Positions 11,163 through 28,293 of a stretch of 64,000 bases of DNA are shown here, piece by piece; position 1 is the first letter of the stretch; every line of letters starts with the position of its first letter. This DNA comes from Methanococcoides methylutens (GTDB lineage: Archaea; Halobacteriota; Methanosarcinia; Methanosarcinales; Methanosarcinaceae), in NCBI RefSeq assembly GCF_000765475.1, contig NZ_JRHO01000014.1:761687-825686 (forward strand), read 5' to 3'. The position numbers and the translations under genes are program-made. The notes below the pieces were generated by a model. That model was not told where the DNA came from. It did not search any database and saw nothing but the letters and a program-made list of their open reading frames with translations.

Positions 11163-13196
11163 ATGGCAAAATTAGATGTAAAAACAGAACTAGAGTCAGT
11201 CATTAACAACAGTCCTGCTGTAGTATTTCTATGTAAAACCGAACAAGGTTGGCCTGTGGAATTTGTATCAGAGAATGTTGTAAAGTTAGGTTACAGTGTA
11301 GAGGATTTTGAATCAGGATGCATTAAATATGCTGACATTATTCACCCTCGCGATCTTGGATATGTTAATTCAGAGGTAGTAAAGAACTCTGAAGAAGGAA
11401 ACACAGAGTACACATAGGAATATAGGATAGTCACAAAGTCCGGAGATGTTCGGTGGGTTGATGACAGGACTTTTATTCGACGTGATGAAGATGGTACCAT
11501 AACTCATTATCAAGGGATTATTCTTGACATCACTGACCGCAAAAAGGCAGAAGAAGCTTTAGATGAAGCCTTAAAGAAAACAAAAGAATTGGAACTTGTT
11601 ATAAATAGCAGTCCTGTGGTCGTATTCTTATGGAAAAATGAACCCAACTGGCCAGTAGAGGTTGTTTCAGATAACATCCTTCAATTTGGTTATACTGCAA
11701 ATGAGTTGATATCAGGTGAGGTTCTCTATTCTGATATTATCTATCCTGATGATCTTGAATATGTTCGCTCTACTTTTGAAAGGAAATCTGGAGAGACTAG
11801 CAAGGGTTTAACTGCAGATTATAGGATAATCACAAAATCCGGAGATGTTCGATGGGTTCGTGAGAGAACTTTGATCAGGCGAGATGAAGATGGTCAAATA
11901 TCCCATTATCAGGGTATCATTCTTGACATCACAGAACGCAAAAAAGCAGAGGATGCTCTTCGTCTTGACGAGTTCCGTCTTGAGGCACTTTTGAAACTTA
12001 ACAAAATGACTGCTGCTCCTTTGCAGGAGATCACGGATTTTGCCCGTGAGGAAGCTGTAAAGCTAACCAAGAGCAAACAGGGCTATCTTGCATTCATGAG
12101 CCCGGATGAAGGTGCTCTTATTATGCATTCATGGTCAAAGGATGCAATGAAAGAATGTGCCATAGAAGATCGGAAATTCATATACCCCATCGAGACCACC
12201 GGGCTCTGGGGAGAAGCTGTAAAGCAGAGAAAACCAATAATTACCAATGATTACCAGGCCCCAAGTTCCCTTAAGAAAGGATATCCTCAAGGTCATGTGG
12301 AACTGACACGCCATATGAATGTCCCGATATTTGATGGTAATCGTATCGTTGCTGTTGCCGGGGTTGGAAATAAAGAAGAAGATTACGATGAATCTGATCT
12401 TCGGCAATTGATCCTACTTATGCAGGGTATGTGGAGACTTATTCAGCGCAAACAAATGGAAGAAGCTCTTCAGAAATATTCACAAGAACTGTCTAAAGCA
12501 GAGATCGAGCTCAAGTCCCTTGATAGGATGGAAGTCGAATTTATTTCAAGCAAAAAGGATCTTTCCCAGGTCACTGAATATGGTGAACTGATGGACGGTG
12601 AAACACTTGATATCATCGATGATCTGAAGAAAAAGGCAATTGACAATGTGCTGCATTACTCTCAAAGATTAAGACGTTTAGTAGATTCTTTCGTTTATAC
12701 AAGCATGGAAGAAGCTGGTAAGATCGAGTATAATTTCGAGCCAATTGATATTTCCGGTTCTCTGGAAAATTCCCTTCTGGACACAATCTTCATGGTAGAA
12801 GAGAAAGATATTCTGGTAGAAAAGATCATACCAGAACCACTTCCTTTGGTCAATGGGGATGAAGAGAAACTGACGGACATGTTCACGATTCTTATGGATG
12901 ATGCTATCAGGTTCACTCCTCCAAAAGGAAAATTGATCCTAAAGATCGATGCAGAAGAAAATTATCTGCATATCATGGTGAAAGATAGTGGTCCGGGAAT
13001 TCCGGAAAAATTGATTCCTCACATGTTCCAGAAGTTCTATGAGATCGGAGCCCTGATTAAACACAGTTATGAAGGACTTGAATCTGGCCTTTACATCTGC
13101 AAGAAAATAGTTGATGCTCATGAAGGCAGAATTAAAATCGAGAGCAAAATTGGTGCTGGAACCGAGGTTCATGTTTGGCTTCCTAAAGTAAAATGA
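11163..13196 (+). CDS. PAS-PAS-GAF sensor with degenerate histidine kinase core; in-frame UAG
   Basis: 677-aa cytoplasmic sensor. PAS1 (about 1-125) and PAS2 (143-262) are recent duplicates, both with IVTKSGDVRW/IITKSGDVRW and a PAC tail HYQGI-ILDIT. A GAF domain spans about 280-430, and an HATPase-like domain about 545-677. PAS1 contains an in-frame TAG at 11415-11417 (residue 85), at the site where PAS2 has Ala in LTADYRI; sequence before and after is fully conserved, so readthrough (pyrrolysine) is likely. The kinase core is unusual: the usual His box is replaced by SSKKDLSQVTEYGEL, the N box Asn is Asp (DDAIRFTP) and G2 is SGLYICKK, although DSGPGIP is kept. It may sense without classical autophosphorylation. 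The ATG at 11163 suits the PAS start; an in-frame upstream ATG is at 11112. The Msr-type regulator follows 105 nt later. Confidence 0.8.
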
Positions 13197-13301: not shown

Positions 13302-14093
13302 ATGAAATCTGAGTTATTAGGTACGCTCTTCCTTTCGGAAAAAAGAAAAGATCTTCTTCTTTTGCTAATAGAAGGTCCCAGGGATATTGATGAGATCAAA
13401 GACATACTTGATGTAACTTCAAGTGCAATAATGACTCAGATAAAGATCCTTATGAGCCAGGGCCTAATAGTTCATGAAAGTGGTCTCTACAGATTATCCG
13501 ACATGTGTAAAGTAATTGTAAAAAAAATGCAGCCCTTATTGGATACTTTGTCGGTCTATGCAGACAACAAGGATTATTGGGAAAATCATAATCTCAATGC
13601 CATTCCTTCTTATCTTCTGGACAGGATCGAAGAGCTTTCCAATTGTGAAGTGGTCGAACCAGACCTTAACCGCATGTATGAACTTCCAAAGAAACTGGAA
13701 GATTCTCTTAAGCAGTCGAGTTATGTGAAAGAAGTTTCTTCATATTTTAGCCCGGCATATCCCGGAGTCTATATCGATCTTGCAAAAAAAGGTATTGAAG
13801 TTTCTGTTATCGTAACAGAGCCGGTTTTTGACAGGCTTCAAAATGAATATAAAGAAGGAACAAAAGAGTTCGTGAATTTGGAACATGGAAACCTATTTGT
13901 TTGCGAGGAGAAAGTAGAGCTTGCATCAAGTACTGTGACGGACAAATTCATGTCTATATCACTTTTTTATAAAACAGGAATATACCACAACCATGCAGTC
14001 ATGAGCTTTGAAGAAAGTGCTTTGAATTGGGGAGAAGACCTATTCATGCATTATCTGAACATCTCAAAACAGATCACAGATTCAGATATATAA
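13302..14093 (+). CDS. Msr/FilR1-type winged-helix transcriptional regulator (DUF1724)
   Basis: 263-aa regulator. Residues 1-75 form an ArsR-like winged helix (KDLLLLLIEGPRDIDEIKDI, TSSAIMTQIKILMSQGLIV), and the remainder is the methanogen FilR1/DUF1724 domain (YLLDRIEELSNCEVVEPD, VSSYFSPAYPGVYIDLAKKG, SISLFYKTGIYHNHAVMSFE). In Methanosarcina, Msr proteins of this architecture control methanol and methylsulfide methyltransferase genes, and one (MsrG) is linked to the sensor kinase MsmS. Here the gene lies between a PAS-GAF sensor and a corrinoid methyltransferase gene, so control of the latter is the natural inference. The likely target is the repeat-rich region at 14285-14326. Confidence 0.85.
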   Translation: MKSELLGTLFLSEKRKDLLLLLIEGPRDIDEIKDILDVTSSAIMTQIKILMSQGLIVHESGLYRLSDMCKVIVKKMQPLLDTLSVYADNKDYWENHNLNAIPSYLLDRIEELSNCEVVEPDLNRMYELPKKLEDSLKQSSYVKEVSSYFSPAYPGVYIDLAKKGIEVSVIVTEPVFDRLQNEYKEGTKEFVNLEHGNLFVCEEKVELASSTVTDKFMSISLFYKTGIYHNHAVMSFEESALNWGEDLFMHYLNISKQITDSDI

Positions 14094-14426: not shown

Positions 14427-14527
14427 CTTAGTCCTTATCATTAGATGTAGTGAATTGAGATATGGACAACATTTGTCCAGCTAATATCTCGATAAAAAAC
14501 AGCAAAAAATGCTGGAGGCAATATCCT

Positions 14528-16432
14528 ATGACAGAAGAACTCTTTAACAAACTAGCGGAAGCTGTGGTTTCTGGAAACAAAGATGAGGCAGTCGAGCTGT
14601 CTAACAAGGCATTAGAGCAAGGTGTTGATGCATATGAGGCTATCATTAACGGATTGGCCAAAGGAATGGAAATAGTCAGTGACAACTATGAGAAAGGAAC
14701 AGCTTTTGTTCCACATCTGCTGATCGCTTCAAATGCAATGTATGGTGGCATGGAAGTTCTCACTCCTCATATGAAGACCGAAGGCGTAGCTAAACCCTCA
14801 AATATTGTCATTGGTACTGTAGAGGGCGATGTCCATGATATCGGTAAGAACCTTGTCAAGACAATGATGACTGCAGGAGGATTCAACCTTATCGATCTTG
14901 GACATGATGTTCCTCTTGAAAAATTTATTGAGACTGCAAAAGAGAACCAGGCAGATGTCATCTCAATGAGCGCACTTATGACCACCACAATGGTTGGAAT
15001 GGAGAAGGTCATCGAGATGCTTCAGGAAGATGGTTTAAGGGACTCCCTGATCGTGATGGTTGGAGGAGCACCTATCTCTGAAGAGTTTGCTGAGGAGATC
15101 GGAGCAGATAAAACTGCACCTGATGCGTTGCATGCTTCACACTGGGTAAAGGATGCTGTAAGGGACCTTCCTCCTTCTGAGGAGAGATGGAGTGATGAAA
15201 AGATCAACCTTTCCAAGGTAAAATACAGGGAGATCCTTTCAAAGAAGAAGGTCAAGAGCAAGACAGATATTGGCCTTGAGACTGCCAGACAGATCATTGA
15301 TGAGTTCGAAAGTGTTGGTGTCAAGACAAAGGAAGAAATGAGCCACGCTGACAGAAGTCTTGCAGCTATGGCTGACAAGAAAGTTGATCGTCTTCCAGTA
15401 TATCCACTTGCCTGTGGTGTTCTCAGAAAATTCGCAGATGCAAGTTACAAGGACTATGCACTGGATCCTGCCAAGTTCGCTGAGAGCGCATTCCTTGGTG
15501 CAAAATATTTGGACCTTGACATGTTCGTTGGTCTGATCGACCTTTCAGCAACTTCAGCTGACTTTGGATGTAAGATAAAGTACCCTGAAGATGACACACC
15601 ATCATCAGAAGGTCACCTTGATGACTATGAAAAACTCGAGGTTCCGGATGTTAAGGAAGGTACCCGTTCATATGAACTTATCAAGGCATCAAAGCTTGCC
15701 AAGGATAAGCTGAACAAGGAACTTGGTACTCCATTCGTTGGTTTCCACGAAGGTCCACTTCTTACACTTACCCAGCTTATGGGTGCAGATCGTGTCCTTA
15801 TGGACATGAAGACCAACCCTGATGTTGTCCTTGAGGCAGTCCAGAAATGTACGGACTACATCTGTCAGGTGTCAGAGGCCTTCTTCGAAGAAGATGCCTG
15901 TGATGCTCTTTGTATTGATAACCTCTGGTCAAACAATGTGATAATGGGTGAAGAAGATTACTGGAAGTTTGATGGTAAGTTTGTCTATGACCAGCACCTT
16001 CCGATCTTCAAGAAGTATGACCAGCCTTACATTATCCATAACTGTGCTGACGCGGTCCATTTCGACACACAGATCAAGAAATTTGGAACTGCTTTGTACA
16101 GCTACGCCTACTATGAGAAATCAAAGGACAAGGGCTCACAGAACTATGCAGACCTTATTCCAAAATACGGAGATACCTGCTGTATGATGGGAGAAGTAAA
16201 CCCGATCGAGTTCATGGACAACTCTCCGGAAGGCATACAGAAGATCGAAAATGATACCGAGGAGCTGCTTCAGGGTGTCCTTGAAACCCTGAAGGAGAAT
16301 GGCATGCAGTCCAAGTACGTCATGTCCACCGGATGTGAGGTACCACCAGGAGGTCCATTGACAGGTGTCAAGGCAATGGTCGACAAGGTCAAGGAACTTG
16401 GTCCACAGCTACAAAAAGAGATAATAGGGTGA
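14528..16432 (+). CDS. Fused corrinoid protein/methylcobamide:CoM methyltransferase (MtsD/MtsF/MtsH-like)
   Basis: 634-aa soluble fusion. Residues 1-85 are the four-helix cap of corrinoid proteins, and 88-215 the B12-binding domain with D101-x-H103-x2-G106 (EGDVHDIGKNLVKTM), the base-off/His-on cobalt ligand. Residues about 270-634 are a UroD/MtaA-type methyltransferase with zinc ligands H504-x-C506 (IIHNCAD) and C603 (STGCEVPPGG). Thus one chain can take a methyl group on cobalt and pass it to coenzyme M. Methanosarcina fusions of this build (MtsD, MtsF, MtsH) act in methylsulfide metabolism, so dimethylsulfide/methanethiol is the best substrate guess. The start at 14528 has GGAGG 8 nt upstream; the in-frame ATG at 14462 has none. 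A terminator follows, so it is transcribed alone. Confidence 0.88.
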   Translation: MTEELFNKLAEAVVSGNKDEAVELSNKALEQGVDAYEAIINGLAKGMEIVSDNYEKGTAFVPHLLIASNAMYGGMEVLTPHMKTEGVAKPSNIVIGTVEGDVHDIGKNLVKTMMTAGGFNLIDLGHDVPLEKFIETAKENQADVISMSALMTTTMVGMEKVIEMLQEDGLRDSLIVMVGGAPISEEFAEEIGADKTAPDALHASHWVKDAVRDLPPSEERWSDEKINLSKVKYREILSKKKVKSKTDIGLETARQIIDEFESVGVKTKEEMSHADRSLAAMADKKVDRLPVYPLACGVLRKFADASYKDYALDPAKFAESAFLGAKYLDLDMFVGLIDLSATSADFGCKIKYPEDDTPSSEGHLDDYEKLEVPDVKEGTRSYELIKASKLAKDKLNKELGTPFVGFHEGPLLTLTQLMGADRVLMDMKTNPDVVLEAVQKCTDYICQVSEAFFEEDACDALCIDNLWSNNVIMGEEDYWKFDGKFVYDQHLPIFKKYDQPYIIHNCADAVHFDTQIKKFGTALYSYAYYEKSKDKGSQNYADLIPKYGDTCCMMGEVNPIEFMDNSPEGIQKIENDTEELLQGVLETLKENGMQSKYVMSTGCEVPPGGPLTGVKAMVDKVKELGPQLQKEIIG

Positions 16433-16456
16433 TATCTAAACCCTATTATTTTTCCA
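16421..16456 (+). terminator. Perfect 10-bp hairpin terminator
   Basis: ATAATAGGGT (16421-16430) pairs perfectly with ACCCTATTAT (16440-16449) around a 9-nt loop, followed by TTTTTCC. The left arm contains the end of the methyltransferase gene. It separates that gene from the downstream ASKHA/chaperonin operon. The rest of 16457-16656 is non-coding; an AT-rich TATA-like TTTAAAAATTAAA at 16599-16611 could drive the next operon. Confidence 0.65.
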
Positions 16457-16656
16457 TATAGACTAACGTAGGCTTGAAATTAGCTGATTTCCCATTGGTC
16501 TTGCTTTGTGGAAGTTATCCAGACTAAAATCACCAATTAGTTTCCGTCTATGTGTCCAGGTGGATTTCTGCAAAGCAAGCTCAAACAATTGTGTAATATT
16601 TAAAAATTAAATGTATTCGAAAAATCTTGAATGATAATATAATGGAGATGATTGAT

Positions 16657-18585
16657 ATGTATCTTGGTCTTGGTATTGATACGGGGGGAACCTATACTGA
16701 TTCGATTATTATGGACATTTCAGCCGGAACAGTAATGGATTCCAATAAGTCGTTGACAACACACTCCAATCTTATAAAAGGGATCAAGAATTCCATTGAA
16801 GGCCTGGATAACAGTTATTTGAAAGATATAGAATTTGTTTCAGTTTCAACTACTCTTGCAACCAATACGACACTTGAAGGAAAAGGGCATCCTGCAGGCC
16901 TTATACTTATCGGGCATTCGATCACTGGAGCTCTTTCAACTGACAATGTTCTTTCCATTAAAGGTGGTCATGATGCAGATGGTAACGTTATAGAGGATCT
17001 TGATGATCTTGGATTGGTTGAAGATTTTGTTATGGAGAACAAAGACAAAGTCTCCTCTTTTGCAGTTTCATCTTATTTCGGGGTCAGGAATCCTGAACAT
17101 GAAATAATAGTTAAAGACCTTATTGGGGAACTGACCGATAAACCCGTTGTATGCGGACATGAACTTTCAAGTAGCCTCGGTGCTTATGAAAGAGCTGTAA
17201 CAGCATTGCTGAATGCACAACTTATTCCTGTAACTGATCAATTCATACGCTCTATCCTTTCTGTAATGGAAGAAAAAGGAATTGATGCCGACCTGATGAT
17301 GATGAAATGTGATGGCTCCCTTGTCAGGATAGAAGATGCGCTCAAAAAACCTGTCGAATCAATCTTTTCGGGTCCCGCAGCCAGTCTTGTAGGTGCTTCT
17401 CATCTTGCAGGTGTCAAAACATGCCTGACTATGGATGTAGGGGGTACAAGCACCGATGTATCAATGATATCCAATGGAATTCCTGAAACAAGTGATAGTG
17501 GAGCTAAGGTAGGCGGGTGGAGCACTATGGTAAAGGCCATAAAGATGTGTACATCTGCTCTTGGAGGTGATAGCCATGTGTGGGTTCAGACGGGTGTTTC
17601 CATTGGTCCTAACAGAGTCACACCTCTATGTCTTGCAGCAATTAATCATCCTGATCTAATAGACAAACTTGCTGAAATGGATAAGCCGAATGTACGTCAT
17701 ATGAATGATATCATACAACCAACTACTTTCTTTGTCAGAAGTGATTCCGAATTCCAGGGTATGAAAGATGCTGTATTAAGTTCTAATGAGAAAGAAGTTC
17801 TCGATGTACTTGGCGATGAACCCCTCTCCCTATCCGATATTTCGATGAAACTTGGTGAGCATACCCTGATGTTCTCCAGTATACTTGCATCACTGGTCAA
17901 GAGAAGATATGTTCAGCAAATCGGTTTTACACCTACAGATGCCCTGCATGTGCTGAGGGATTATATCAAGTGGGATTCAAAGGCATCTCGTCTGGGGGCT
18001 GAACTACTTGCTGAGTATTTGGACATGGGAATGGGTGGTTTTTGCTCATACATAAAAGAGCAAGTTGTAAAGAACATGTCTTTGAATATAATCTCCTTCT
18101 TTGAAGAAGATGTCAGGAGATCAGACATAGAAAAAATGATTGACTTTTCATCTCCTCTTACCTTCAAGGTGAATCATCCGGTGGTTCTTGTGGGAGGTCC
18201 TGTGAAGGCGTATTTGACAGATATCAACAACATGATAGATGCCAATATAATAGTCCCTGAACATCATGAGGTCGGAAACGCTGTTGGTGCACTTCTTGGG
18301 GATGTTGTTCACAGAACTGATGTTCTTGTAAGGGGGGCTGGTGCTGGTAGCAATCAATATGCTGTTTTCTCAGAGACCGGAAGGGAGGTCTTTGACGAAT
18401 ATACAGATGCTGTGGCACATGGCCTTGAACTCAGTAAAAAGCTGATAGCCGAACATATGACCGGATATGGGCTGGACATGAATATGATAGATTTTGATCT
18501 AGCCAGGCATGATGTAAGAAGTGGGTTCGGTACAAGTCTTGAGACCAAGCTGGTTGCAACCGGTATTGGAAGTCCAAGGAGGTAA
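16657..18585 (+). CDS. ASKHA-family ATPase, hydantoinase A/oxoprolinase-like (putative corrinoid-protein activator)
   Basis: 642-aa cytoplasmic protein with two actin-like phosphate motifs: LGIDTGGTYTDSII near residue 4 and TMDVGGTSTDVSMI near residue 259, plus an adenosine-type motif VLVGGPVKAY and a late GAGAGSNQYAVF. This is the HyuA_N/HyuA layout, but with a long insertion in the centre (about 300-480) that includes a helix-turn-helix-like LSLSDISMKLGEHTLMF. No hydantoinase B partner is present. Its neighbours are corrinoid methyltransferases and a chaperonin-like protein, so an ATP-driven role in reactivating or maturing the corrinoid protein is more likely than hydantoin hydrolysis. Start ATG 16657 has GGAG 9 nt upstream; the longest frame begins at TTG 16627. 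The stop codon overlaps the next gene's first ATG. Confidence 0.7.
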   Translation: MYLGLGIDTGGTYTDSIIMDISAGTVMDSNKSLTTHSNLIKGIKNSIEGLDNSYLKDIEFVSVSTTLATNTTLEGKGHPAGLILIGHSITGALSTDNVLSIKGGHDADGNVIEDLDDLGLVEDFVMENKDKVSSFAVSSYFGVRNPEHEIIVKDLIGELTDKPVVCGHELSSSLGAYERAVTALLNAQLIPVTDQFIRSILSVMEEKGIDADLMMMKCDGSLVRIEDALKKPVESIFSGPAASLVGASHLAGVKTCLTMDVGGTSTDVSMISNGIPETSDSGAKVGGWSTMVKAIKMCTSALGGDSHVWVQTGVSIGPNRVTPLCLAAINHPDLIDKLAEMDKPNVRHMNDIIQPTTFFVRSDSEFQGMKDAVLSSNEKEVLDVLGDEPLSLSDISMKLGEHTLMFSSILASLVKRRYVQQIGFTPTDALHVLRDYIKWDSKASRLGAELLAEYLDMGMGGFCSYIKEQVVKNMSLNIISFFEEDVRRSDIEKMIDFSSPLTFKVNHPVVLVGGPVKAYLTDINNMIDANIIVPEHHEVGNAVGALLGDVVHRTDVLVRGAGAGSNQYAVFSETGREVFDEYTDAVAHGLELSKKLIAEHMTGYGLDMNMIDFDLARHDVRSGFGTSLETKLVATGIGSPRR

Positions 18586-18590
18586 TGAAA

Positions 18591-20201
18591 ATGAGTTCAA
18601 TAATCAATAATGTGGGTCAACAACAGAACAATTTGGATGATATATATCAACTTGCACAGAGTGTGCGCCAAAAGATCGGACTGGAAGGAGATGTTGAGGA
18701 TAAAGAACTGATCGATCATCTGGAAACTGCATGTTCTGAGATAAAGGAACTCCTGAGTTCTTCTTTTGGTCCCAGAGGTCTTAATAAGCTGATTACAAAT
18801 CATGTTGATGACATCTATCTGACCAATGATGGAAAGACCATAATAGAACAAATTGATGTTTTGCATCCAATAGTGACTTCCTTGAAAGAACTTTCAAGAT
18901 CGATGGATAAATCCTGTGGCGATGGTACAAAGACTGCAGTTATACTGGCATCCGGCCTGATAATAAATGCAGTTAAGCTGATCAAAATAGGTTTCCACCC
19001 TACTACTATTATAAAAGGCTACAAGCTTGCCCTTAATAAGGCATACGAACTTCTCGAGCTCAATAGTATAACTGCCAGAACATACGATGAGTCCTATGCT
19101 GCTATCCTGAGTGCAACTGTTAGTAAAGGCATAGAGTTCGATCAGGCAGAGGTGCTTTCAACTATAGTTGTCGATGTGATCGAACATTTGAGAACATTAT
19201 CCGTTGATGGTTATCTTGATCTCGATGAAAATGTGAAGATCATGAAAAAGGTCGGTGGTCCTGAGATCGTTCACCTTAACGGTGTCATTCTTGATGAATC
19301 TCCTGCAAGATTTGACATGCCACGATCATTTATTGATTCTAAGATCCTTATCCTGAACTATGATGTCAAGCTCAAGAGTGAAATTGTAAACTCCAGGCAT
19401 AACATCAGTATGGATAGTATTGAGACTGCTTATCTGTTTGAAGAAGAGCGTAAGAGGATACTTGGCAACTTTGCTGAGAAGATCATCAATACTGGTGTAA
19501 ATGTTGTTTTTTGCGAGGGTGATGTGGACTCTTGCATCGAAGAAAAGCTTGTAAAGAACAATGTATTGATGTTCAAGAAACTTAAAATGAAAGACCTCGA
19601 GAACATTTCAATGGCAACAGGTGCAGAGATCATGTCCATAAGGGATGATCTGAATGAACAGCACCTTGGAAAAGCAGATAAGGTTGAAGTTAAAAAGAGA
19701 TGTGGAGAGGATTTTGCTTTCATAGAAATTAAAGATCAGAAGTTTTCGACAATTCTGATATGGGAGCCTGTAAAATATGCACTTGAAAAGGTCGAAGAGG
19801 CTGCAGACGATGCATTGAACACAGCAGCATTCATCCTCAGGAACAAAATGGTAGTTACCGGAGGTGGTGGAATTGAGTTTGAACTTTCACAGATGTTGAG
19901 GAGCTATGCTTCTACAATAGAAGGAAAGGAGCAGTTCGCCGTTATCGAGTATGCCAATGCACTTGAAGACATACCACGGATATTGGCAAAGAACATGGGC
20001 ATGAATGTTATCGATTCAATGACAAAAATGTCCTATCTCTATAACAAGGGTCTTGATGCAAGGGTAGATTATTCCAGAAAGATCACTGAGAACAATCCTC
20101 TTGTCTACGATTCTGCTACCATCAAGAAACTGGCGATAATCTCTGCCACCGAGACTGCAAACAGCGTTCTGAGAATTGACAAAATAGTAATGAAGAAATA
20201 A
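18591..20201 (+). CDS. Divergent group II chaperonin (thermosome-like) in a methyltransferase operon
   Basis: 536-aa homologue of the thermosome subunit. Equatorial domain: SSFGPRGLNKLI, LTNDGKTIIEQIDVLHP, and the ATP motif GDGTKT (110-115), which keeps the Asp but changes the usual third Thr to Lys. The apical segment contains VILDESPARFDMP, and the C-terminal equatorial part VVTGGGGIEFELS, ALEDIPRILAKNMGMNVID and KKLAIISATETANSVLRID. Length is normal and hydrolysis residues look present, so it is probably an active ATPase. The divergence and the place between an ASKHA ATPase and methyltransferases argue for a dedicated folding or assembly factor rather than a housekeeping thermosome. Methanosarcina acetivorans also has extra divergent Hsp60 proteins. 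ATG 18591 has GGAGG at ideal spacing. Confidence 0.85.
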   Translation: MSSIINNVGQQQNNLDDIYQLAQSVRQKIGLEGDVEDKELIDHLETACSEIKELLSSSFGPRGLNKLITNHVDDIYLTNDGKTIIEQIDVLHPIVTSLKELSRSMDKSCGDGTKTAVILASGLIINAVKLIKIGFHPTTIIKGYKLALNKAYELLELNSITARTYDESYAAILSATVSKGIEFDQAEVLSTIVVDVIEHLRTLSVDGYLDLDENVKIMKKVGGPEIVHLNGVILDESPARFDMPRSFIDSKILILNYDVKLKSEIVNSRHNISMDSIETAYLFEEERKRILGNFAEKIINTGVNVVFCEGDVDSCIEEKLVKNNVLMFKKLKMKDLENISMATGAEIMSIRDDLNEQHLGKADKVEVKKRCGEDFAFIEIKDQKFSTILIWEPVKYALEKVEEAADDALNTAAFILRNKMVVTGGGGIEFELSQMLRSYASTIEGKEQFAVIEYANALEDIPRILAKNMGMNVIDSMTKMSYLYNKGLDARVDYSRKITENNPLVYDSATIKKLAIISATETANSVLRIDKIVMKK

Positions 20202-20222
20202 TGTTGTAGGGGGTTTCCACAC

Positions 20223-21260
20223 ATGCATGATCTCAACTTAAAAGACAGGCTTCTGAAGTTATTTGAAGGAGAAGATGTCGATAAAGTTCCGGTAGGGTCC
20301 TTCACCACAAGCCCGGTTGTAGAACTTATGGACATGTGTGGCGCTGCAAGACCTGAAGCAGACAGTGATCCGAATAAAATGGCTACACTGACAATTTCAC
20401 AGCAGGAGATTGCTGGTTTTGAAATGGTAAGGTTCCCTTTTGATTGCACCATCCTTGGAGAGGCCATGGGTTGTGAAATTTATAGTGGTACAAAGGAGAG
20501 AACGCCTTCGGTTATAAACGGACCTTTCAAAGACCCGCTCAATGGCTTTGAAGTTCCCAGTAACCTGTTGGACAGGGGAAGGATCCCATCAATTCTTGAA
20601 GCTGCTGACATCATCAGGGAGAGAATCGGAGATGAGCTTCCCATAGTTGCAGGTCTTGAAGGACCTACGGACCTTGCAGTAAGTCTTTCCAGCCTCAGGT
20701 CATTTCTTTTGTGGACCATAAAGGACCGGGAGAAGGTTGAACAATTGCTGGACATTTGCACTGAAGCATGTATAGAACTGGGAAATGCATATCTCGATCA
20801 TGGTGTGGATGTGGTCTGCATTGCTGACGCTGTAGCTTCTCCTGAGTTAGTACAACCATCTGATTTCGAGGAACTTATAAAACCAAGATATTCCCGAATC
20901 ACGAAAGGCATCAATGGTCTCAGTGTATTGCATGTCTGCGGGAAGGCAGATCCGATAATATCTCATATGACCGGGTGTGGGTTTGATGGTATCAGCATTG
21001 AAGAAAGCATTCAGGACCTGAATACTGCTGTAGAGGTGGCACACAGAAATAATACGATCGTAATTGGGAATGTTTCTACCTCAGTGACGATGTTCAGCGG
21101 AACCCCTGAGCAGGTAAAAGAAGAAGCTTTCAAATCCCTAGATGCTGGTGTTGATATACTTGCTCCGGGATGTGGCCTGGCTCCCCAGACACCTATTCGG
21201 AATCTCAAGGCACTGGTGGAAGCAAGAAACGAGTATTGTGATCAAAGTTATACGATCTAA
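20223..21260 (+). CDS. MtaA/MtbA-family methylcobamide:thiol methyltransferase (UroD superfamily)
   Basis: 345-aa soluble TIM-barrel protein of the uroporphyrinogen decarboxylase superfamily, methyltransferase branch. Zinc ligands typical of MtaA/MtbA are visible: H237-x-C239 (LHVCGKAD) and C317 (APGCGLAP). It also has the MtaA-like start LKDRLLKLFEGEDVDKVPVGSF and GLEGPTDLAVSL. Zinc activates the thiol of coenzyme M, or of a related thiol, for attack on methyl-cobalt. It lies 21 nt after the chaperonin gene with a G-rich ribosome-binding site. It could be the partner for a different corrinoid protein or an alternative acceptor for the fusion enzyme. Decarboxylase function is unlikely because of the HxC...C set. 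Confidence 0.85.
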   Translation: MHDLNLKDRLLKLFEGEDVDKVPVGSFTTSPVVELMDMCGAARPEADSDPNKMATLTISQQEIAGFEMVRFPFDCTILGEAMGCEIYSGTKERTPSVINGPFKDPLNGFEVPSNLLDRGRIPSILEAADIIRERIGDELPIVAGLEGPTDLAVSLSSLRSFLLWTIKDREKVEQLLDICTEACIELGNAYLDHGVDVVCIADAVASPELVQPSDFEELIKPRYSRITKGINGLSVLHVCGKADPIISHMTGCGFDGISIEESIQDLNTAVEVAHRNNTIVIGNVSTSVTMFSGTPEQVKEEAFKSLDAGVDILAPGCGLAPQTPIRNLKALVEARNEYCDQSYTI

Positions 21261-21291
21261 AATATTCAATCGAAATAAGGAGGAAAATCCC

Positions 21292-21606
21292 ATGACAGAA
21301 GTAACCGTAAAATCAAATGTTTGTGGTTTTACCCACAAGGTATGTGGAAATATGGAAGGTGACAGGATTGTCGTCGATATAGACACACCCTGTGAAAAGG
21401 TCAGGAAAATGTCCCATCTGGAAGTTCCGATGATGGACCTGTTTGACATAAAGGACAACCATGTAATGCAAAAAGCGCAGGAAGCAAAATGCAGCGTAAC
21501 ATGTCTCATTCCCTCTGCAGTACTTCATGTATGCTGTCTTGAAGCCGGTCTTATGTCAAAGTCCCTGGCAGGGAATGTAGGGGAGGTTGGTATAGAGTTC
21601 GAATGA
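21292..21606 (+). CDS. Small Cys-rich protein of methyltransferase clusters (DUF6951-like)
   Basis: 104-aa soluble protein beginning MTEVTVKSNVCGFTHKV. Cysteines occur at CGFTHKVCG, TPCEKV, AKCSVTCLIP and LHVCCLEAG, which would suit a metal site or redox role. The start has a strong ribosome-binding site (AAGGAGG). It lies between two UroD-type methyltransferase genes and about 30 nt after the first, so it is cotranscribed. I recall that such small proteins are annotated as DUF6951 next to corrinoid methyltransferases, but this is memory, not a search. No function is known to me. Confidence 0.8.
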   Translation: MTEVTVKSNVCGFTHKVCGNMEGDRIVVDIDTPCEKVRKMSHLEVPMMDLFDIKDNHVMQKAQEAKCSVTCLIPSAVLHVCCLEAGLMSKSLAGNVGEVGIEFE

Positions 21607-21667
21607 CATTGATTTGCTTAATGTCTGAAAGATTTCAGTAAACAAAAAGGTGGTTAGAGGTGGTCCA

Positions 21668-22765
21668 TTGACAGAGGAAATGACTTCAAAAGAGAGATTC
21701 GTTAATGCTATTGAGATGAAGGATGTAGACAGGATGCCTTATGGGTACCTTTGGTTCGGTGCAGGTGATGCAGTCCTTGAACGTATGGGTGCCAGTATGA
21801 GCGATGCCTACTATTCTGCAAAGGGGATTGCCAGAGCACAGATACTTGCAAGGGAGATGTATCATCATGATAACGTGATGTCTCCCTGGGGATGTCTGCT
21901 TGTAGAGGCGGAAGCCCTTGGTACCAAACTGAACATCAAAGATAACAGGTATCCTACAATAGCTGAGCATCCTATAGGATCGGCAAAGGAATATGATAAA
22001 ATAGATCCTCTGGATATTGAGAGGTCTGAAAGGGTGGATACGGTTGCAAGGTCCATTGCCATTCTCAAAAAAGAGCTCAATGACGAGGTTTTCATAACCG
22101 GAAGTATGCTTTCTCCCCTGATGCTTGCTGCCCAGATCCTTGAGGCGAGTAATCTTTGTATTGAGATGCTAACGGAGAAAGAAAGCGTACATGCTCTTCT
22201 TGAAAGGCTTACTCAAAGCTGCATTTTGTATGCGAATCGGATGCTCGAAGAAGGAGCTGATGGCATCTTAGTGGAGAACGGGGAGAACACAGCAGACCTT
22301 TTCAGTCCTGAGATGGCTGACGAATTCATGCTTAAGTATACAAAAGAACTCTATGAAAACATTCAGGCAAACGGTGGATATGTTATATCCCATAATTGTG
22401 CAGAACATGCCTTCCATGAAATGGAACTGTCCCTGAAACCGGATGTCCTTAACTTTGCTTTTGGGGATGTTAAAGCACTGGGGAAACAACATGGTGTTGA
22501 ATGTGTGAAGATCCACAAAAAGACAGGCTGTAGCCCCAGATATTGTTTTAAGGACATTGGAAAACATGATGTATGTCTGATGGGCAACATCAATCCAAAC
22601 GTATTTGGTGACGGTTCATTTGCTGATATTGAGAACGAAGTGAAAAACTGTATGGATGCAGCTCCTGAGAAAGGCTTCATCCTCTCTACAGGATGTGAGA
22701 TTCCACTTAATACACCACTTGAAGAGATGGAAACACTCTGGCAGGCAATGAGTTCCCGCTTCTGA
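21668..22765 (+). CDS. UroD-superfamily methyltransferase, related to the C-terminal half of the fusion enzyme
   Basis: 365-aa protein with the same zinc set as the other methyltransferases of the island: H242-N-C244 (VISHNCAE) and C343 (STGCEIPLNT). The closing signature STGCE(I/V)P-x4-PL matches the C-terminal domain of the fused enzyme at 14.5 kb, so the two are probably related by duplication. Residues 60-120 keep the SPWGCLLVEAEALG region seen in methyltransferases rather than decarboxylases. The start chosen is TTG 21668, 5 nt after GAGGTG; ATG 21680 is an alternative and the longest frame begins at 21650. It is the last gene of the operon. Confidence 0.82.
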   Translation: MTEEMTSKERFVNAIEMKDVDRMPYGYLWFGAGDAVLERMGASMSDAYYSAKGIARAQILAREMYHHDNVMSPWGCLLVEAEALGTKLNIKDNRYPTIAEHPIGSAKEYDKIDPLDIERSERVDTVARSIAILKKELNDEVFITGSMLSPLMLAAQILEASNLCIEMLTEKESVHALLERLTQSCILYANRMLEEGADGILVENGENTADLFSPEMADEFMLKYTKELYENIQANGGYVISHNCAEHAFHEMELSLKPDVLNFAFGDVKALGKQHGVECVKIHKKTGCSPRYCFKDIGKHDVCLMGNINPNVFGDGSFADIENEVKNCMDAAPEKGFILSTGCEIPLNTPLEEMETLWQAMSSRF

Positions 22766-23141: not shown

Positions 23142-26100
23142 TTAGAGCCTTCGTCTCCTGAAACCGATAGTAATGACAGCAACGGATAACACGACCAGCA
23201 CGCTGCCTAAGATATCAGCACCGGAGAAGGATGTAGACGATGAGGCCGAATCACTTGTCACGGATTCTTTTGTCATTTCATATCCTTCAACGTAGTTGTC
23301 TGGTGTGCTTTGCTGTGAAGCATCTGCTGGCTGGTCAGTGGTAGTTCCATACCCCCCATTAACAGTGCTTGTGCTAGTGGTATTGACGATCGAAGCAGAT
23401 GCAGTATTTCCGCTACTGCTGCTGCGGGTACTGGAAACTGATGATTGAGAATTACTCTGTGTGGCCTCTTCCATCAGTCTATTGTACTCGTCGATGGTCT
23501 CCTGGTCGACAACTCCAGGTACTGACATTATGCCCTGCACGTACTCATCAAGCAGAGCATTTCCACAGGTGTGGTGACAGCATGTTACACCATCATTGAC
23601 CACCGATTCAACGTATTCCTTTACAAGGCTTTGTTTAACCTCTTCTGAAGCATCCCAGTAGTCCTTTCGAATGGTTTCGAGCATACGTGCAGTTATTGAC
23701 TGATACTGATATGGATTTTCAGTCTTCAGGAATTCGTCCACTCCAATATCATACTTGTCCATAACATAGATATCGTATATCTCATCCCAATCAGAATCAG
23801 CGACCATATCCGGGTTCGTTACATCCCATCCCCACAGATATTCAATGGATTTCATCATCTGACGAGCACCTGCATAGTCACCTTCCATCATACCAGAGAT
23901 CCATGTCGGGTTGAAGTTACGTGCACGCAATTCTGTCCTGAATGCCTCTTTCAGCGTCATCATCTGAAGGTCATCCGTATTTTCCTGATTGGCTATATAC
24001 AATTCAGGCGTCTCACCTGTGAGTGACCTTATTGTAAGTCCGATCGATCCAAGATAACCGTAGTATCCATCACCGTCAAGTAGCCCGAACAGGTTTGTAG
24101 AGTCACTGTGTACAGCAGCATCAACATCCATCAGGTTCATTGTGAACACATCTTCATAACCTTCGCCCCACATATCCTGTCCATAGATGTAAGACGATGA
24201 TGATATGAAGAGGTCGGCAAGTTTGGATTCATCTTCCCATGTATCACTTGCAGCAATCGCATCTTCCATTCCGTTGTCATAATTACCGGGTGCTTCACTG
24301 AATATCCTTGATCTTGACAGGTACTCTGCTGTTTCATTATCATAGCCCATATCAATGAGAGCAGCTTCCATTGCCAGTGAGTTACATCTTACATAGTTAT
24401 CCTCACAGGACTCCCAATCGCGTTCTGCAACCGTTCGAATGGCCTCATCGATCAACTCCAGCTGATAGGGGAAAGTATCCCTGTACAGTCCTGAGGAGTG
24501 AATTACCACATCGATCCTTGGATGGTTCATATCCTCAATATCTATTACCGTAAAACCAGTAATACGCCCATCATCTCTTACGGGTTCTACTCCTAAAAGT
24601 GAATAGATCTGGGCTTCCATAAGTCCGTGATGGCGCAGTGTTTCCATAGCCCAGAGGACATACGACACCTTATTCGGGTAAGTTCCGTTATGATTGGTGT
24701 AGTAGTCCTCTACAAGCTGGTCTGCAAGGATGACACCCATTGCCTGGGTTTCCACATCAGGGAATTTCCTCTGGTCAAAGCCATAGAAGTTCCTGCCGGT
24801 TGGCAATGCATCCGGATTGCGTATCGGATCATTTCCTGGTGCCGGTTCAATGTATTCCGCATTCAGTGCATGCAATGTCTGGTTGATCTCACGCGTGGTC
24901 TGACCGAGCTTATCAGCATAATCCAACCCCAGAGTAAGATCGGCTGTAATGGTAGTATTATTAAGACCAAGGATATTGTCCTGAGCGGTCACAACATCCA
25001 TACCATTGAGTACTGTGGCATTCAAAAGCTCAGTTGCATAAGTATCGGCTTCATCTTCCCAATCCTCTTCGTCTCCAGTATCCTTCGGGATCACATTATA
25101 GATATGGTTGACAAAATCACTGCGAAGCATTGATTTGACCATACAGACAAGTTTTTCTTCTTCCGGTGCCACTCCAAAAGTGTGGACACCGTAAGGCATC
25201 AGTGTTTCTTGTAATGTATGGAGATAATCATGGACTGCAGTACCTACAAATTCTCCAAATACCTCATCAGACATTGATCGGAGTTCATCCGGGGTGACTC
25301 CAAGATCATTTTCCATTGAGAGGTTTGTGTAAAGGTTGATTGTACTGTTGCGATAACTATCGGCCATAGTGCTGTTGGCTTTTATAGCGTCTTCGTAACT
25401 GTGTATCGTGTCATGCATGGTGGTAAGATCACCATAGATTCCTGCCGCCATTATCGGTGGGGTCAGGTGATCTATCATCACCGCATAACCACGGTGTTTA
25501 GCCTGACTGCCTTCACCCACATTATCCATTATGTAGGGATATATGATAGGTGTATCAGCCGCACATATTGAAGGGTAATCATACCTCCACAACCCGATCT
25601 CTTTTCCAGGTGACCATTCCATTGAACCGTGCGTACCAAAGTGGATGATGGCATCGGCATCATATACCTGGTTGATCCAGAAGTAAGCTGCCAGATACTG
25701 GTGAGTTAGCGGTATTGACTCATTGTGATATATGAGTGATTCATCAGAAAGCTTGGCTTTTGTTGGTTGTGGCATGAAGATGACATTTCCAAGCTGGACC
25801 GTTGGCATCACGAAGTATTCTCCGCTCTCGTTCTCATATACCATGATATCCCCAGGAGCCTCGCCCCATGTACCTTCAACTTCAGTCCTGACTGATTCAG
25901 GTAATGTATTATACCAGACAAGATATTCCTCGACCGGCCAAAGAGTTGCTTTGCCAGAGTTTACAACCTTCTCAAGTTCACCAGGAGCCCATGCTCCAAC
26001 ATTCCTGCTTTCGATGAAAAGGTCAATGAACTCACTGCCGTTTGGAATACTACCGTTGCCTATGTCGTAACCTTCTGCCCGCATTTGCTCAAGCAGCAAT

Positions 26101-28229
26101 GTGAAACTTGATCCGATATCAAGGTAACTGGCACCAATATTTTCCTTACCACCGTCGTGGTTGTAATAGAGAATACTGACTTTCTTGTCCTCGTTGCTGG
26201 CCCCTCCAAGTTCTGCCCAACCGATCGCACGGTCACACAAGAATTCCACCTGCGACATGATAGGTTCGTAATATAACTGGTCAGGGTTTTCAGGATTCTG
26301 CACTCTTCCGCTTATCCATATGAAATCGGTGCACCCATCAACTTCAGGTTGTGTAACCATAGCAGGAAGACTCATCAGATCTGTTCCATGCAGGCTGTTG
26401 TTGAATTCCCCTGGTGTTGTGTATGGATCCTGTATTCCTTTAAGGATAGGAACATTGTATTTCTGAAGATATTCCACACCCTGTGTCTGATTCTCATAGT
26501 TAAGATAGAAAGCCTTCAAGTGGATAATAGCATCTACGAGTACTTCACCATCTTTGGTGAAATAATCAACATCATCATTGAATGCAACATCGGTGGTGTA
26601 GATAACATTGCATCCTTTCGATTCAAGATACCTGATTATTGCATCGTCGGTGGTGAAATAGATCTCTTCTTTTTGAATTTCATAGTTTACAATACCAATC
26701 GTGGATGCGGATTCATTATAACCATGATCAGCATACCACTCAAGATATTCTGTACTGTCTTGGAAAACCTTCGGATAATAGTCCGGATGATAGATCCCGT
26801 CATCAGGAATTACCGGAGGAGCTACAGGCGAGTATTCTATATAGACATCATCAATCTCTCCTCCCAAGTAACGAACCAGACTCTCCATGTTTGTGTTTCC
26901 GCCGATATCAAGATATTCCTTAATCACATCATGAGGAGGATTTTGCAGGTCGATCGTACCTATTCCATAGGCATCTCCCGTTCCAAAACCAATTTGCGCA
27001 CCTTTATCCTTTGCATCAGATAATACTTCCGCCATCTTCAAGATATCAGTGGCACCGACCATATCAACTATTATAATGTCCTGATCTGAAGCATCAGTGA
27101 GGTTTGCAATTGCCTCGCTGCCGGTCATGACATTTATGTTGAAACGATCAGTGATCACGCCTCTCTGGGAAATAATAACGCTAAGAGATTGACGATTAGC
27201 GTCGACTCCGTTAATAAACGTTATATTCACTTTTTCCTGCAACAACCCAGGTTCAGCAATCTCCTCACCTTCCCAGAAACCGGAGAAATTCTGGCCCATG
27301 AATTTGAGCATGCTCTTCATGTTTGCGTCGCCACCCTGTATCCAGTATCGTTCAATGTCTGTGTATTCATCTGAATACAAGTCAACATTTGGAAGGGTGA
27401 TGTTGGAGGAGAGGTTATAGCCTATGACCATTGCACCGCCTGTTTTAGCAGACTTTATGCTTGAGGTCCAATTATTTACTACAGCTTCATCCTCTGACTC
27501 GATGAAGATCATTCCATAATTCGAAAAATCGAATCCTTCTGGTACAGGATTATTCTTCGTGAAAATTTTGACATTTAACTCTGCAGATATATTCACATCC
27601 GAAGACGCATTATTTAGTGCCAGTTCATTGAACTCTGTACCCAGAACAAATACGAATTTACTACTATCTACATTTGTATTTCCAAGAATCGAAGTTCTCA
27701 GGAGTTCAGGACCATTTGTTGAAAGGTATATAAGCAGGTTCTCTGCGTTTTCCAGACCTTCTCCCCCAGTACCCATGTTCATGAAATAGTTACAGACAGG
27801 ATCATTGGAAATACCGTCTGAAATGTAGTCCGGATAAGCAGGACAGGTTCCCATGGTCCTTAAGGCGTATATCTCTGCGCCATTAGCCTGTGCACTTATC
27901 AAGCTCTCACTGATTGAGGTAGCGTTTAAGATAGTGCTTCCAAGGTAATCACAGAAAATGACATCCTGAGTTTCCAAAAAACCGGATTCAGCAGCTTCAC
28001 GAAGATCATCACTGATTCCATCATCAGCACTGGAATTATAGTAGTTGATATAATTGTACTCGATGAGATCGCTATAATCATTTGTCTCACTGGCCATCTC
28101 AAGAGCGTCATTTGGAACATAACTGATGTAAGTGACCTTTGTCACTTGTTCTTCTGCCGATACCACTGGCGAAAGCGCCAGCAAAACCAAAATACTTAAA
28201 ATTAACAACTGATGTTTTATATTTCGCAT
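23142..28229 (-). CDS. Secreted, membrane-anchored CobN/BchH-like chelatase-family protein
   Basis: 1695-aa surface protein. The N-terminus is a signal peptide (LLILSILVLLALSPVVSAEE). About 480 residues of two Rossmann-like repeats follow (each with TDxxIxxD-type strands). The CobN core then has IHFGTHGSMEWSPGKEIGLW around residue 860, PYIMDNVGEGSQAKHRGYAV, and GRNFYGFD. Near the end are a Ser/Thr-rich linker (about 1590-1660) and a single TM helix closing in RRRRL. Family members CobN and BchH insert Co or Mg into tetrapyrroles in the cytoplasm with ChlI/ChlD-type ATPases. Here the domain is outside the cell and no such partner is adjacent, so ATP-driven chelation is doubtful. Binding or salvage of corrinoid, heme or metal is the better guess. 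ATG 28229 has GGTGG upstream; an upstream in-frame ATG at 28265 would bury the signal peptide. Confidence 0.85.
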   Translation of the reverse strand: MRNIKHQLLILSILVLLALSPVVSAEEQVTKVTYISYVPNDALEMASETNDYSDLIEYNYINYYNSSADDGISDDLREAAESGFLETQDVIFCDYLGSTILNATSISESLISAQANGAEIYALRTMGTCPAYPDYISDGISNDPVCNYFMNMGTGGEGLENAENLLIYLSTNGPELLRTSILGNTNVDSSKFVFVLGTEFNELALNNASSDVNISAELNVKIFTKNNPVPEGFDFSNYGMIFIESEDEAVVNNWTSSIKSAKTGGAMVIGYNLSSNITLPNVDLYSDEYTDIERYWIQGGDANMKSMLKFMGQNFSGFWEGEEIAEPGLLQEKVNITFINGVDANRQSLSVIISQRGVITDRFNINVMTGSEAIANLTDASDQDIIIVDMVGATDILKMAEVLSDAKDKGAQIGFGTGDAYGIGTIDLQNPPHDVIKEYLDIGGNTNMESLVRYLGGEIDDVYIEYSPVAPPVIPDDGIYHPDYYPKVFQDSTEYLEWYADHGYNESASTIGIVNYEIQKEEIYFTTDDAIIRYLESKGCNVIYTTDVAFNDDVDYFTKDGEVLVDAIIHLKAFYLNYENQTQGVEYLQKYNVPILKGIQDPYTTPGEFNNSLHGTDLMSLPAMVTQPEVDGCTDFIWISGRVQNPENPDQLYYEPIMSQVEFLCDRAIGWAELGGASNEDKKVSILYYNHDGGKENIGASYLDIGSSFTLLLEQMRAEGYDIGNGSIPNGSEFIDLFIESRNVGAWAPGELEKVVNSGKATLWPVEEYLVWYNTLPESVRTEVEGTWGEAPGDIMVYENESGEYFVMPTVQLGNVIFMPQPTKAKLSDESLIYHNESIPLTHQYLAAYFWINQVYDADAIIHFGTHGSMEWSPGKEIGLWRYDYPSICAADTPIIYPYIMDNVGEGSQAKHRGYAVMIDHLTPPIMAAGIYGDLTTMHDTIHSYEDAIKANSTMADSYRNSTINLYTNLSMENDLGVTPDELRSMSDEVFGEFVGTAVHDYLHTLQETLMPYGVHTFGVAPEEEKLVCMVKSMLRSDFVNHIYNVIPKDTGDEEDWEDEADTYATELLNATVLNGMDVVTAQDNILGLNNTTITADLTLGLDYADKLGQTTREINQTLHALNAEYIEPAPGNDPIRNPDALPTGRNFYGFDQRKFPDVETQAMGVILADQLVEDYYTNHNGTYPNKVSYVLWAMETLRHHGLMEAQIYSLLGVEPVRDDGRITGFTVIDIEDMNHPRIDVVIHSSGLYRDTFPYQLELIDEAIRTVAERDWESCEDNYVRCNSLAMEAALIDMGYDNETAEYLSRSRIFSEAPGNYDNGMEDAIAASDTWEDESKLADLFISSSSYIYGQDMWGEGYEDVFTMNLMDVDAAVHSDSTNLFGLLDGDGYYGYLGSIGLTIRSLTGETPELYIANQENTDDLQMMTLKEAFRTELRARNFNPTWISGMMEGDYAGARQMMKSIEYLWGWDVTNPDMVADSDWDEIYDIYVMDKYDIGVDEFLKTENPYQYQSITARMLETIRKDYWDASEEVKQSLVKEYVESVVNDGVTCCHHTCGNALLDEYVQGIMSVPGVVDQETIDEYNRLMEEATQSNSQSSVSSTRSSSSGNTASASIVNTTSTSTVNGGYGTTTDQPADASQQSTPDNYVEGYEMTKESVTSDSASSSTSFSGADILGSVLVVLSVAVITIGFRRRRL

Positions 28230-28251
28230 ATTATCCACCCGATGATGTGTA

Positions 28252-28293
28252 AGATATCCCGGCACTTTGCTTGGCGGCTGTTCTGGGATATCT
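28252..28293 (-). promoter_or_regulatory. Leader hairpin upstream of the CobN-like gene
   Basis: In the transcript of the CobN-like gene, AGATATCCC pairs with GGGATATCT (28285-28293 with 28252-28260), enclosing a 24-nt G/C-rich interior. The right arm ends 23 nt before the start codon at 28229. It could be an RNA regulatory element or mRNA stabiliser. I do not see a cobalamin-riboswitch B12 box. Confidence 0.35.

Follow-up and report, generated by a model that had tools for sequence, protein, structure and literature searches.

Within a 64,000-nucleotide stretch of its genome, the archaeon Methanococcoides methylutens encodes a corrinoid methyltransferase together with a HyuA-like ATPase of the ASKHA superfamily (mts-ASKHA) and a divergent group II chaperonin (mts-CPN). 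The stretch, referred to here as the window, spans positions 761687-825686 of contig NZ_JRHO01000014.1 (C14 of genome G000; 2.51 Mb, 99.9% complete). We consider it probable that this operon makes and runs an MtsD-type methyl-sulfide:coenzyme M (CoM) methyltransferase, and that the chaperonin, a thermosome derivative, serves as a dedicated assembly chaperone for corrinoid/UroD fusion proteins of the MtsD and MtsF types. Chaperonins are usually regarded as generalists. The present arrangement suggests that a general folding machine has been specialised for building one metabolic enzyme.

Separate searches with ASKHA, chaperonin and fusion were run against 186 genomes of the order, and the positions of the matches were then compared. 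Chaperonin matches split on either side of a gap into this clade (at least 46% identity) and ordinary thermosomes (36% or less). Fifty-nine of the 61 clade members, drawn from 47 genomes, lie no more than 3.5 kb from a full or partial fusion gene. About 0.3 would be expected at random, which rules out chance clustering. The two unlinked copies (G127 and G128) sit on broken contigs: theirs start with the ASKHA gene, and in these genomes the contigs bearing the fusion break off where ASKHA begins. Counted by genome, 47 hold both genes, six the fusion only, none the chaperonin only and 133 neither (Fisher's test, 7e-38 across the order and 2.5e-25 within the family, both descriptive since the genomes are related). 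In three of the six fusion-only genomes (G161, G166 and G170) contigs stop inside the chaperonin gene, and a true absence can be ruled out there; in G161 and G170 the break falls at the same chaperonin residue at both the MtsD locus and an MtsF locus, as expected from the assembly of near-identical repeats. The other three (G121, G122 and G175) are incomplete or fragmented assemblies. A first-pass annotation of this DNA had named the absence of ASKHA and chaperonin beside homologous fusions elsewhere as a result that would refute a dedicated folding or activation machine; across the 186 genomes the association was instead kept throughout the Methanosarcinaceae. The gene order FilR-fusion-ASKHA-chaperonin recurs in many genera, including Methanimicrococcus, and a scan of further genome contigs gave two named loci, from Methanococcoides alaskense and Methanimicrococcus blatticola. 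One genome of the same genus (G091) lacks all three, with no fusion, no member of the chaperonin clade and no closely related ASKHA. Outside the Methanosarcinaceae, the clade was found in none of 393 genomes spread across the phylum, save for one 35% match in G455.

The fusion carries its B12-binding_2, B12-binding and URO-D domains within a single frame (an alternative start lies at 14462) and falls inside the MtsD clade of the tree. Genome G148 was taken as Methanosarcina acetivorans and the MtsD, MtsF and MtsH positions were read there; to the corresponding proteins the window fusion is 75%, 56% and 70% identical, respectively. The locus spacing of a second genome, G080, fits the mtsD, mtsF and mtsH locus tags of Methanosarcina MTP4 (PMC7374477). 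With a corrinoid domain fused to a UroD-type methyltransferase and a place among MtsD proteins, the window fusion is by sequence an MtsD orthologue, and its activity would be that of a dimethyl sulfide:CoM methyltransferase. In M. acetivorans, methanogenesis from dimethyl sulfide requires mtsD, according to a report as cited in PMC10762971. M. alaskense has two near-identical copies (97.8%), each with an ASKHA gene and only one with a chaperonin (L069:739-4685, L070:1216-5248), and in M. blatticola two fusions flank a repeat surface protein of 1611 residues (L082:12290-19418).

The first-pass annotation had proposed a search for co-occurrence with MtsD-, MtsF- and MtsH-like fusions. Co-occurrence holds for two of the three: the chaperonin accompanies MtsD, directly after the ASKHA gene, and MtsF, usually after a small unannotated open reading frame, and MtsH loci are without it. 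In M. acetivorans the two copies lie at 1.02 Mb (MtsD locus) and 5.41 Mb (MtsF locus). The small frame, of about 100-175 codons, separates mtsF and the chaperonin gene in nearly all MtsF loci (L066:8907-9278; L079, L081, L098, L102, L103, L106, L108 and L116). Its L066 copy has no Pfam match, and a small partner protein is a possible reading. A third fusion type, found in G160 and G174 (L084 and L105), adjoins a further chaperonin lineage, with the order ASKHA-chaperonin-fusion in G174. A CobW-family GTPase gene often lies just 3' of the chaperonin gene (L065:7529-8632, L066:12075-13178, L085:12333-13406, L073:13360-13965) and its product may serve this system as a chaperone for a metal or cofactor. 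Expression data exist for one of these blocks: in M. acetivorans, MA4384-MA4394, from mtsF to just ahead of the hydantoinase-like genes, was the longest gene run altered by HdrED repression and responded as a single unit (PMC11619418). By position the MtsF-linked chaperonin falls within this run; the text of that paper does not name it.

Comparing the MtsD-linked with the MtsF-linked chaperonin of one and the same genome gives identities of 96.8% (M. acetivorans), 96.6% (G080), 95.5% (G155), 92.7% (G082) and 99.6% (G081), which exceed those to the chaperonins of any other genome; G171 and the divergent third copies of G080 and G160 are exceptions. Most such pairs also group by genome in the tree. 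MtsD and MtsF, in contrast, share about 55% identity and fall into distinct, ancient clades, so that chaperonins this alike at the two loci are what would be expected of one shared function. The alike DNA usually starts about 10-35 nt ahead of the chaperonin gene and ends near its stop codon, extending in M. acetivorans across the following CobW-type GTPase gene. Judged from the sequences, this likeness represents concerted evolution, through either gene conversion or repeated re-duplication. The chaperonin gene carries a frameshift in G157 and G154 (MtsF locus in both) and an internal deletion in G168 (MtsD locus), and is missing from the MtsD locus of G158; every one of these genomes has an intact copy at another locus. 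One working chaperonin per genome therefore seems to be enough, and to be retained.

At MtsD loci the ASKHA gene directly precedes the chaperonin gene. In the window its TAA stop and the chaperonin ATG overlap by one base (18585), with an AGGAGG ahead of it, and overlaps of 4 nt are frequent among relatives, which indicates translational coupling. The first-pass annotation correctly described a hydantoinase-like ASKHA without its hydantoinase B partner: PF05378 and PF01968 score above cut-off (97.2 and 105.5 bits), and no HyuB gene occurs among the scanned neighbours, which leaves no HyuAB hydantoinase or oxoprolinase. Its further suggestion, that the protein belongs to the ASKHA proteins that reactivate corrinoid enzymes, does not survive. 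The protein has neither the PF14574 RACo domain nor an Fe-S domain. A sequence search of solved structures places it in the HyuA/oxoprolinase/acetone-carboxylase family, and the leading fold matches of its structural model (mean predicted local distance difference test score 85.7, with a helical winged-helix-like insert) are N-methylhydantoinase, acetone carboxylase, acetophenone carboxylase and caprolactamase (E 3e-19 to 9e-25), with neither RACo nor RamA among them. A RamA-type activase can be ruled out by domains and fold. Three motifs are invariant (D8-GGTYTD15, D260-GGTS-D267 and G513-PV516). RamA itself (TIGR04270) is encoded away from the operon in this genome (C4:26624-28216); in many relatives the operon itself includes it, downstream of the chaperonin. 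With RamA present, corrinoid reduction would fall to it, and a different role is probable for the HyuA-like protein; our best guess is an ATP-driven action on the client that the chaperonin would also handle.

Alternatively, the ASKHA protein could be an unrelated ATP-dependent enzyme, activating a metabolite as hydantoinases and carboxylases do, and the chaperonin alone would serve the methyltransferase. The HyuA-type fold and motifs are in keeping with this, as are the MtsF-linked chaperonins, which have no ASKHA gene immediately adjacent, and the several ASKHA paralogues per genome, some of them away from recognised methyltransferases. M. methylutens has five other closely related paralogues as well as a single distant match. 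One of the paralogues adjoins mtaCB, RamA and MtaA (L149), the others lying elsewhere, and such a neighbourhood fits poorly with an unrelated enzyme, as do the lack of any HyuB or carboxylase partner subunit nearby and the coupling to the chaperonin at MtsD loci. We regard this alternative as unlikely, albeit one to be kept in mind. HyuA-like ASKHA genes, present as several paralogues per genome and often in tandem (L121, L149-L155), make up a large uncharacterised family in methylotrophic methanogens.

The chaperonin is divergent and belongs to group II, as first annotated. It matches Cpn60_TCP1 over profile positions 1-489 of 490 (cut-off 34.3 bits), scoring below the three other Cpn60 genes of the genome (526-635 bits), and misses the NCBIfam thermosome cut-offs (TIGR02339, 350 against 671; alpha, 341 against 450; beta, 338 against 400). 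In the tree a long branch with 100/100 support sets the clade apart from the three canonical subunits. The GDGT motif and the catalytic aspartate of DDAL are invariant in the clade, and TNDG is replaced by TSDG in most members. The apical region, with the helical protrusion that would form a built-in lid, aligns with few gaps to the solved group II chaperonins 9rwp and 6xhi (a comparison of sequence only). Substitutions fixed in the clade (window protein numbering) are alanine to lysine at 84, glutamate to leucine at 93, valine to lysine at 101 and threonine to lysine at 116. With three other subunits in the genome and a separate clade, an ordinary thermosome subunit can be ruled out. M. acetivorans is described as having five group II and one group I chaperonin genes, a set of five being said to be known from that species only (PMC6420498, PMC5220055). 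The Cpn60 genes of G148 fit that count: three are canonical thermosome genes, two belong to this clade and the sixth is more distant. The mts chaperonins are probably the fourth and fifth group II subunits of M. acetivorans, which have been without a role. That species is not unique in its extra genes; G080, for instance, has three canonical genes and three of this clade.

Another possibility is that the protein supplements the ordinary thermosome: produced during growth on methyl sulfides, it would enter mixed rings as an additional subunit and shift their client range, with neither a private ring nor a single client. Reviews count every one of the five group II genes of M. acetivorans among the thermosome subunits and anticipate assembly into hexadecamers (PMC6420498, PMC5220055), and the three canonical subunits are retained in the genomes. 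Against mixed rings stand the very long branch, an identity of 32-36% to the canonical subunits, a different N-terminus (a stretch of about 45 residues substitutes for the usual start) and the missing GGM-rich C-terminal tail. Moreover, the presence of the chaperonin follows the fusion gene and nothing general. Mixed rings thus appear rather improbable.

Under the dedicated-chaperone reading, a FilR1-type regulator and a kinase would turn the operon on, and the fused protein (about 70 kDa, comprising a corrinoid-binding part and a UroD barrel) would be translated. The chaperonin ring would take up the fusion and either fold it in an ATP-driven manner or hold it open until the corrinoid is loaded. 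The co-translated HyuA-like ASKHA protein would act on the same client, most likely in an ATP-driven delivery, cofactor-loading or conformational step. RamA would then convert Co(II) to Co(I), and the enzyme would transfer methyl groups from methyl sulfide to CoM. The RamA and CobW GTPase genes in the operons of relatives point to such a maturation context. The chaperonin-ASKHA pair could instead act after folding, repairing or reloading damaged corrinoid enzyme in the manner of diol dehydratase reactivases. ASKHA proteins partner several B12 enzymes, the two genes are translationally coupled, and there are weak sequence echoes of MutL/GlmL, the glutamate mutase accessory protein. These matches are below cut-off, however, no reactivase appears among the leading folds, which are of HyuA type, and reduction is already supplied by RamA; to a repair function we accordingly attach little probability. 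That the chaperonin is a mere passenger or stress gene on the operon promoter is very improbable: the known facts are indeed co-location, with co-regulation for the MtsF block only, but the gene is kept at two distant loci, homogenised within genomes in a tract mostly confined to itself, translationally coupled and in no genome found alone.

Several points weigh against a dedicated assembly chaperone. Two MtsH loci (L067 and L080) have two tandem ASKHA genes and no chaperonin; the genomes concerned hold chaperonins at their other loci. The order-wide co-occurrence counts carry no correction for phylogeny, and operon membership is evidence of co-expression rather than of client binding. Between genera, conservation is lowest in the apical domain, the one that binds clients (41-50% identity against 56-62% for the equatorial domain), which does not favour a rigidly fixed client contact. 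Finally, Vepachedu and Ferry in 2012 reportedly overproduced MtsF (CmtA) in Escherichia coli and reconstituted it with cobalamin, which would speak against an absolute need for the chaperonin. A bolder form of the proposal can be offered only tentatively, at somewhat short of an even chance: the Methanosarcinaceae may possess a private second chaperonin system, in which a group II chaperonin has given up general folding and, with an ASKHA protein of the Hsp70/actin superfamily encoded by an overlapping gene, folds or corrinoid-loads MtsD and MtsF fusions.

All genes of the set described in the first-pass annotation were recovered in place by open reading frames and profiles, including the two UroD-type methyltransferases (MtaA and a second protein) and the Cys-rich small protein, a DUF6951 member. 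On the plus strand the order is kinase, FilR1-like regulator, fusion, ASKHA, chaperonin, MtaA, DUF6951 and second UroD protein (table below). The FilR1-family regulator and the PAS/GAF kinase are part of the conserved block: a FilR1-like regulator lies upstream of the fusion, and relatives of the kinase directly upstream of FilR, in most loci. The second UroD protein falls under all MtaA and MtbA cut-offs in profile scoring, and its relatives lie directly 3' of the chaperonin in many related loci. In DUF6951, Cys12, 35, 68 and 72 are invariant, which by sequence suggests a metal or Fe-S site; a fold search gave no significant match (the top one, IscU at E 0.2, was not used). Relatives of DUF6951 also occur outside these operons (L153). 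The next gene 3', on the opposite strand, is CobN/Mg-chelatase-like (window 23142-28265, minus strand; 1707 residues, 1094 bits). Its product starts with a signal-like segment, carries at the C-terminus a membrane stretch that ends in RRRL, and is apparently exported while adjoining a corrinoid operon. A promoter scan with a bacterial-type model, which is ill-suited to archaea, gave no excess over shuffled sequence.

Genes of the mts operon and its upstream regulators, in window coordinates.
Feature	Coordinates	Strand	Evidence
PAS/GAF sensor histidine kinase (associated, not core)	11589..13196	+	Pfam PAS_3, GAF_2, HATPase_c
FilR1-family HTH transcription regulator (Msr-like)	13302..14093	+	PF08350 129.8 bits, HTH_5
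Fused corrinoid-binding/UroD-type methyltransferase, MtsD orthologue by sequence	14528..16432	+	PF02607 + PF02310 + PF01208
HyuA-like ASKHA ATPase (mts-ASKHA)	16657..18585	+	PF05378 Hydant_A_N, PF01968 Hydantoinase_A
Divergent group II chaperonin (mts-CPN)	18585..20201	+	PF00118 Cpn60_TCP1 401.7 bits
MtaA, methylcobamide:CoM methyltransferase	20223..21260	+	URO-D; NF040654 494.6 bits (curated cut-off 400)
DUF6951 small Cys-rich protein	21289..21606 (first ATG 21292)	+	PF22263
Second UroD-family methyltransferase	21674..22765	+	PF01208 233 bits

Taken together, it appears that an archaeal lineage has set aside a separate chaperonin for a single class of enzymes and has retained the two together family-wide. 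This would point to an unrecognised maturation step in the formation of methane from methyl sulfides, and would provide a testable role, in an organism with good genetics, for chaperonin subunits that have been without one since 2005. Production of these enzymes in foreign hosts may benefit from supplying the chaperonin and ASKHA genes. If the private system proves real, we know of no earlier case of a chaperonin tied to a B12 enzyme, and the surplus chaperonin genes of M. acetivorans would be accounted for. Among the open papers searched, none was found that connects chaperonins with corrinoid enzymes or that mentions these genes as part of the methyl-sulfide system, and a search on the chaperonin locus tags returned nothing relevant.

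A chaperonin devoted to one enzyme system, held in the first-pass annotation to be undescribed, indeed seems to be so for this setting in the literature searched, but it has a bacterial precedent. MmoG, a GroEL-like chaperonin encoded in soluble methane monooxygenase operons, has been proposed to fold that metalloenzyme (PMC9324122), and as here a chaperonin-like gene lies inside the operon of a large metalloenzyme. MmoG is, however, a bacterial group I protein with no built-in lid, whereas mts-CPN is an archaeal group II protein with a lid region, a corrinoid enzyme as neighbour and an ASKHA partner. The window chaperonin has neither the group I sequence nor the di-iron monooxygenase operon of MmoG, and the analogy is one of role only. 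RamA and RACo are ASKHA-superfamily ATPases that serve corrinoid methyltransferases, as mts-ASKHA would, and RamA is a neighbour within many of these operons; mts-ASKHA differs in being HyuA-like and without their PF14574 and Fe-S domains. With the HyuA-type subunits of N-methylhydantoinase, caprolactamase and acetone or acetophenone carboxylase it shares domain order, nucleotide motifs and predicted fold, but it has no HyuB or carboxylase partner, bears a winged-helix-like insert and stands in a corrinoid setting. MtsD, MtsF (CmtA) and MtsH of M. acetivorans (MA0859, MA4384 and MA4558) have the same fused corrinoid/UroD architecture as the window protein. The open papers on them name methyltransferases and regulators and list neither chaperonin nor ASKHA as part of the system, except that MA4395 and MA4396 are called predicted hydantoinases. 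Likewise, the fourth and fifth chaperonin subunits of M. acetivorans were described as thermosome subunits with no assigned role (Maeder et al. 2005, as cited in PMC6420498), where here they appear as members of a family-wide, operon-bound lineage.

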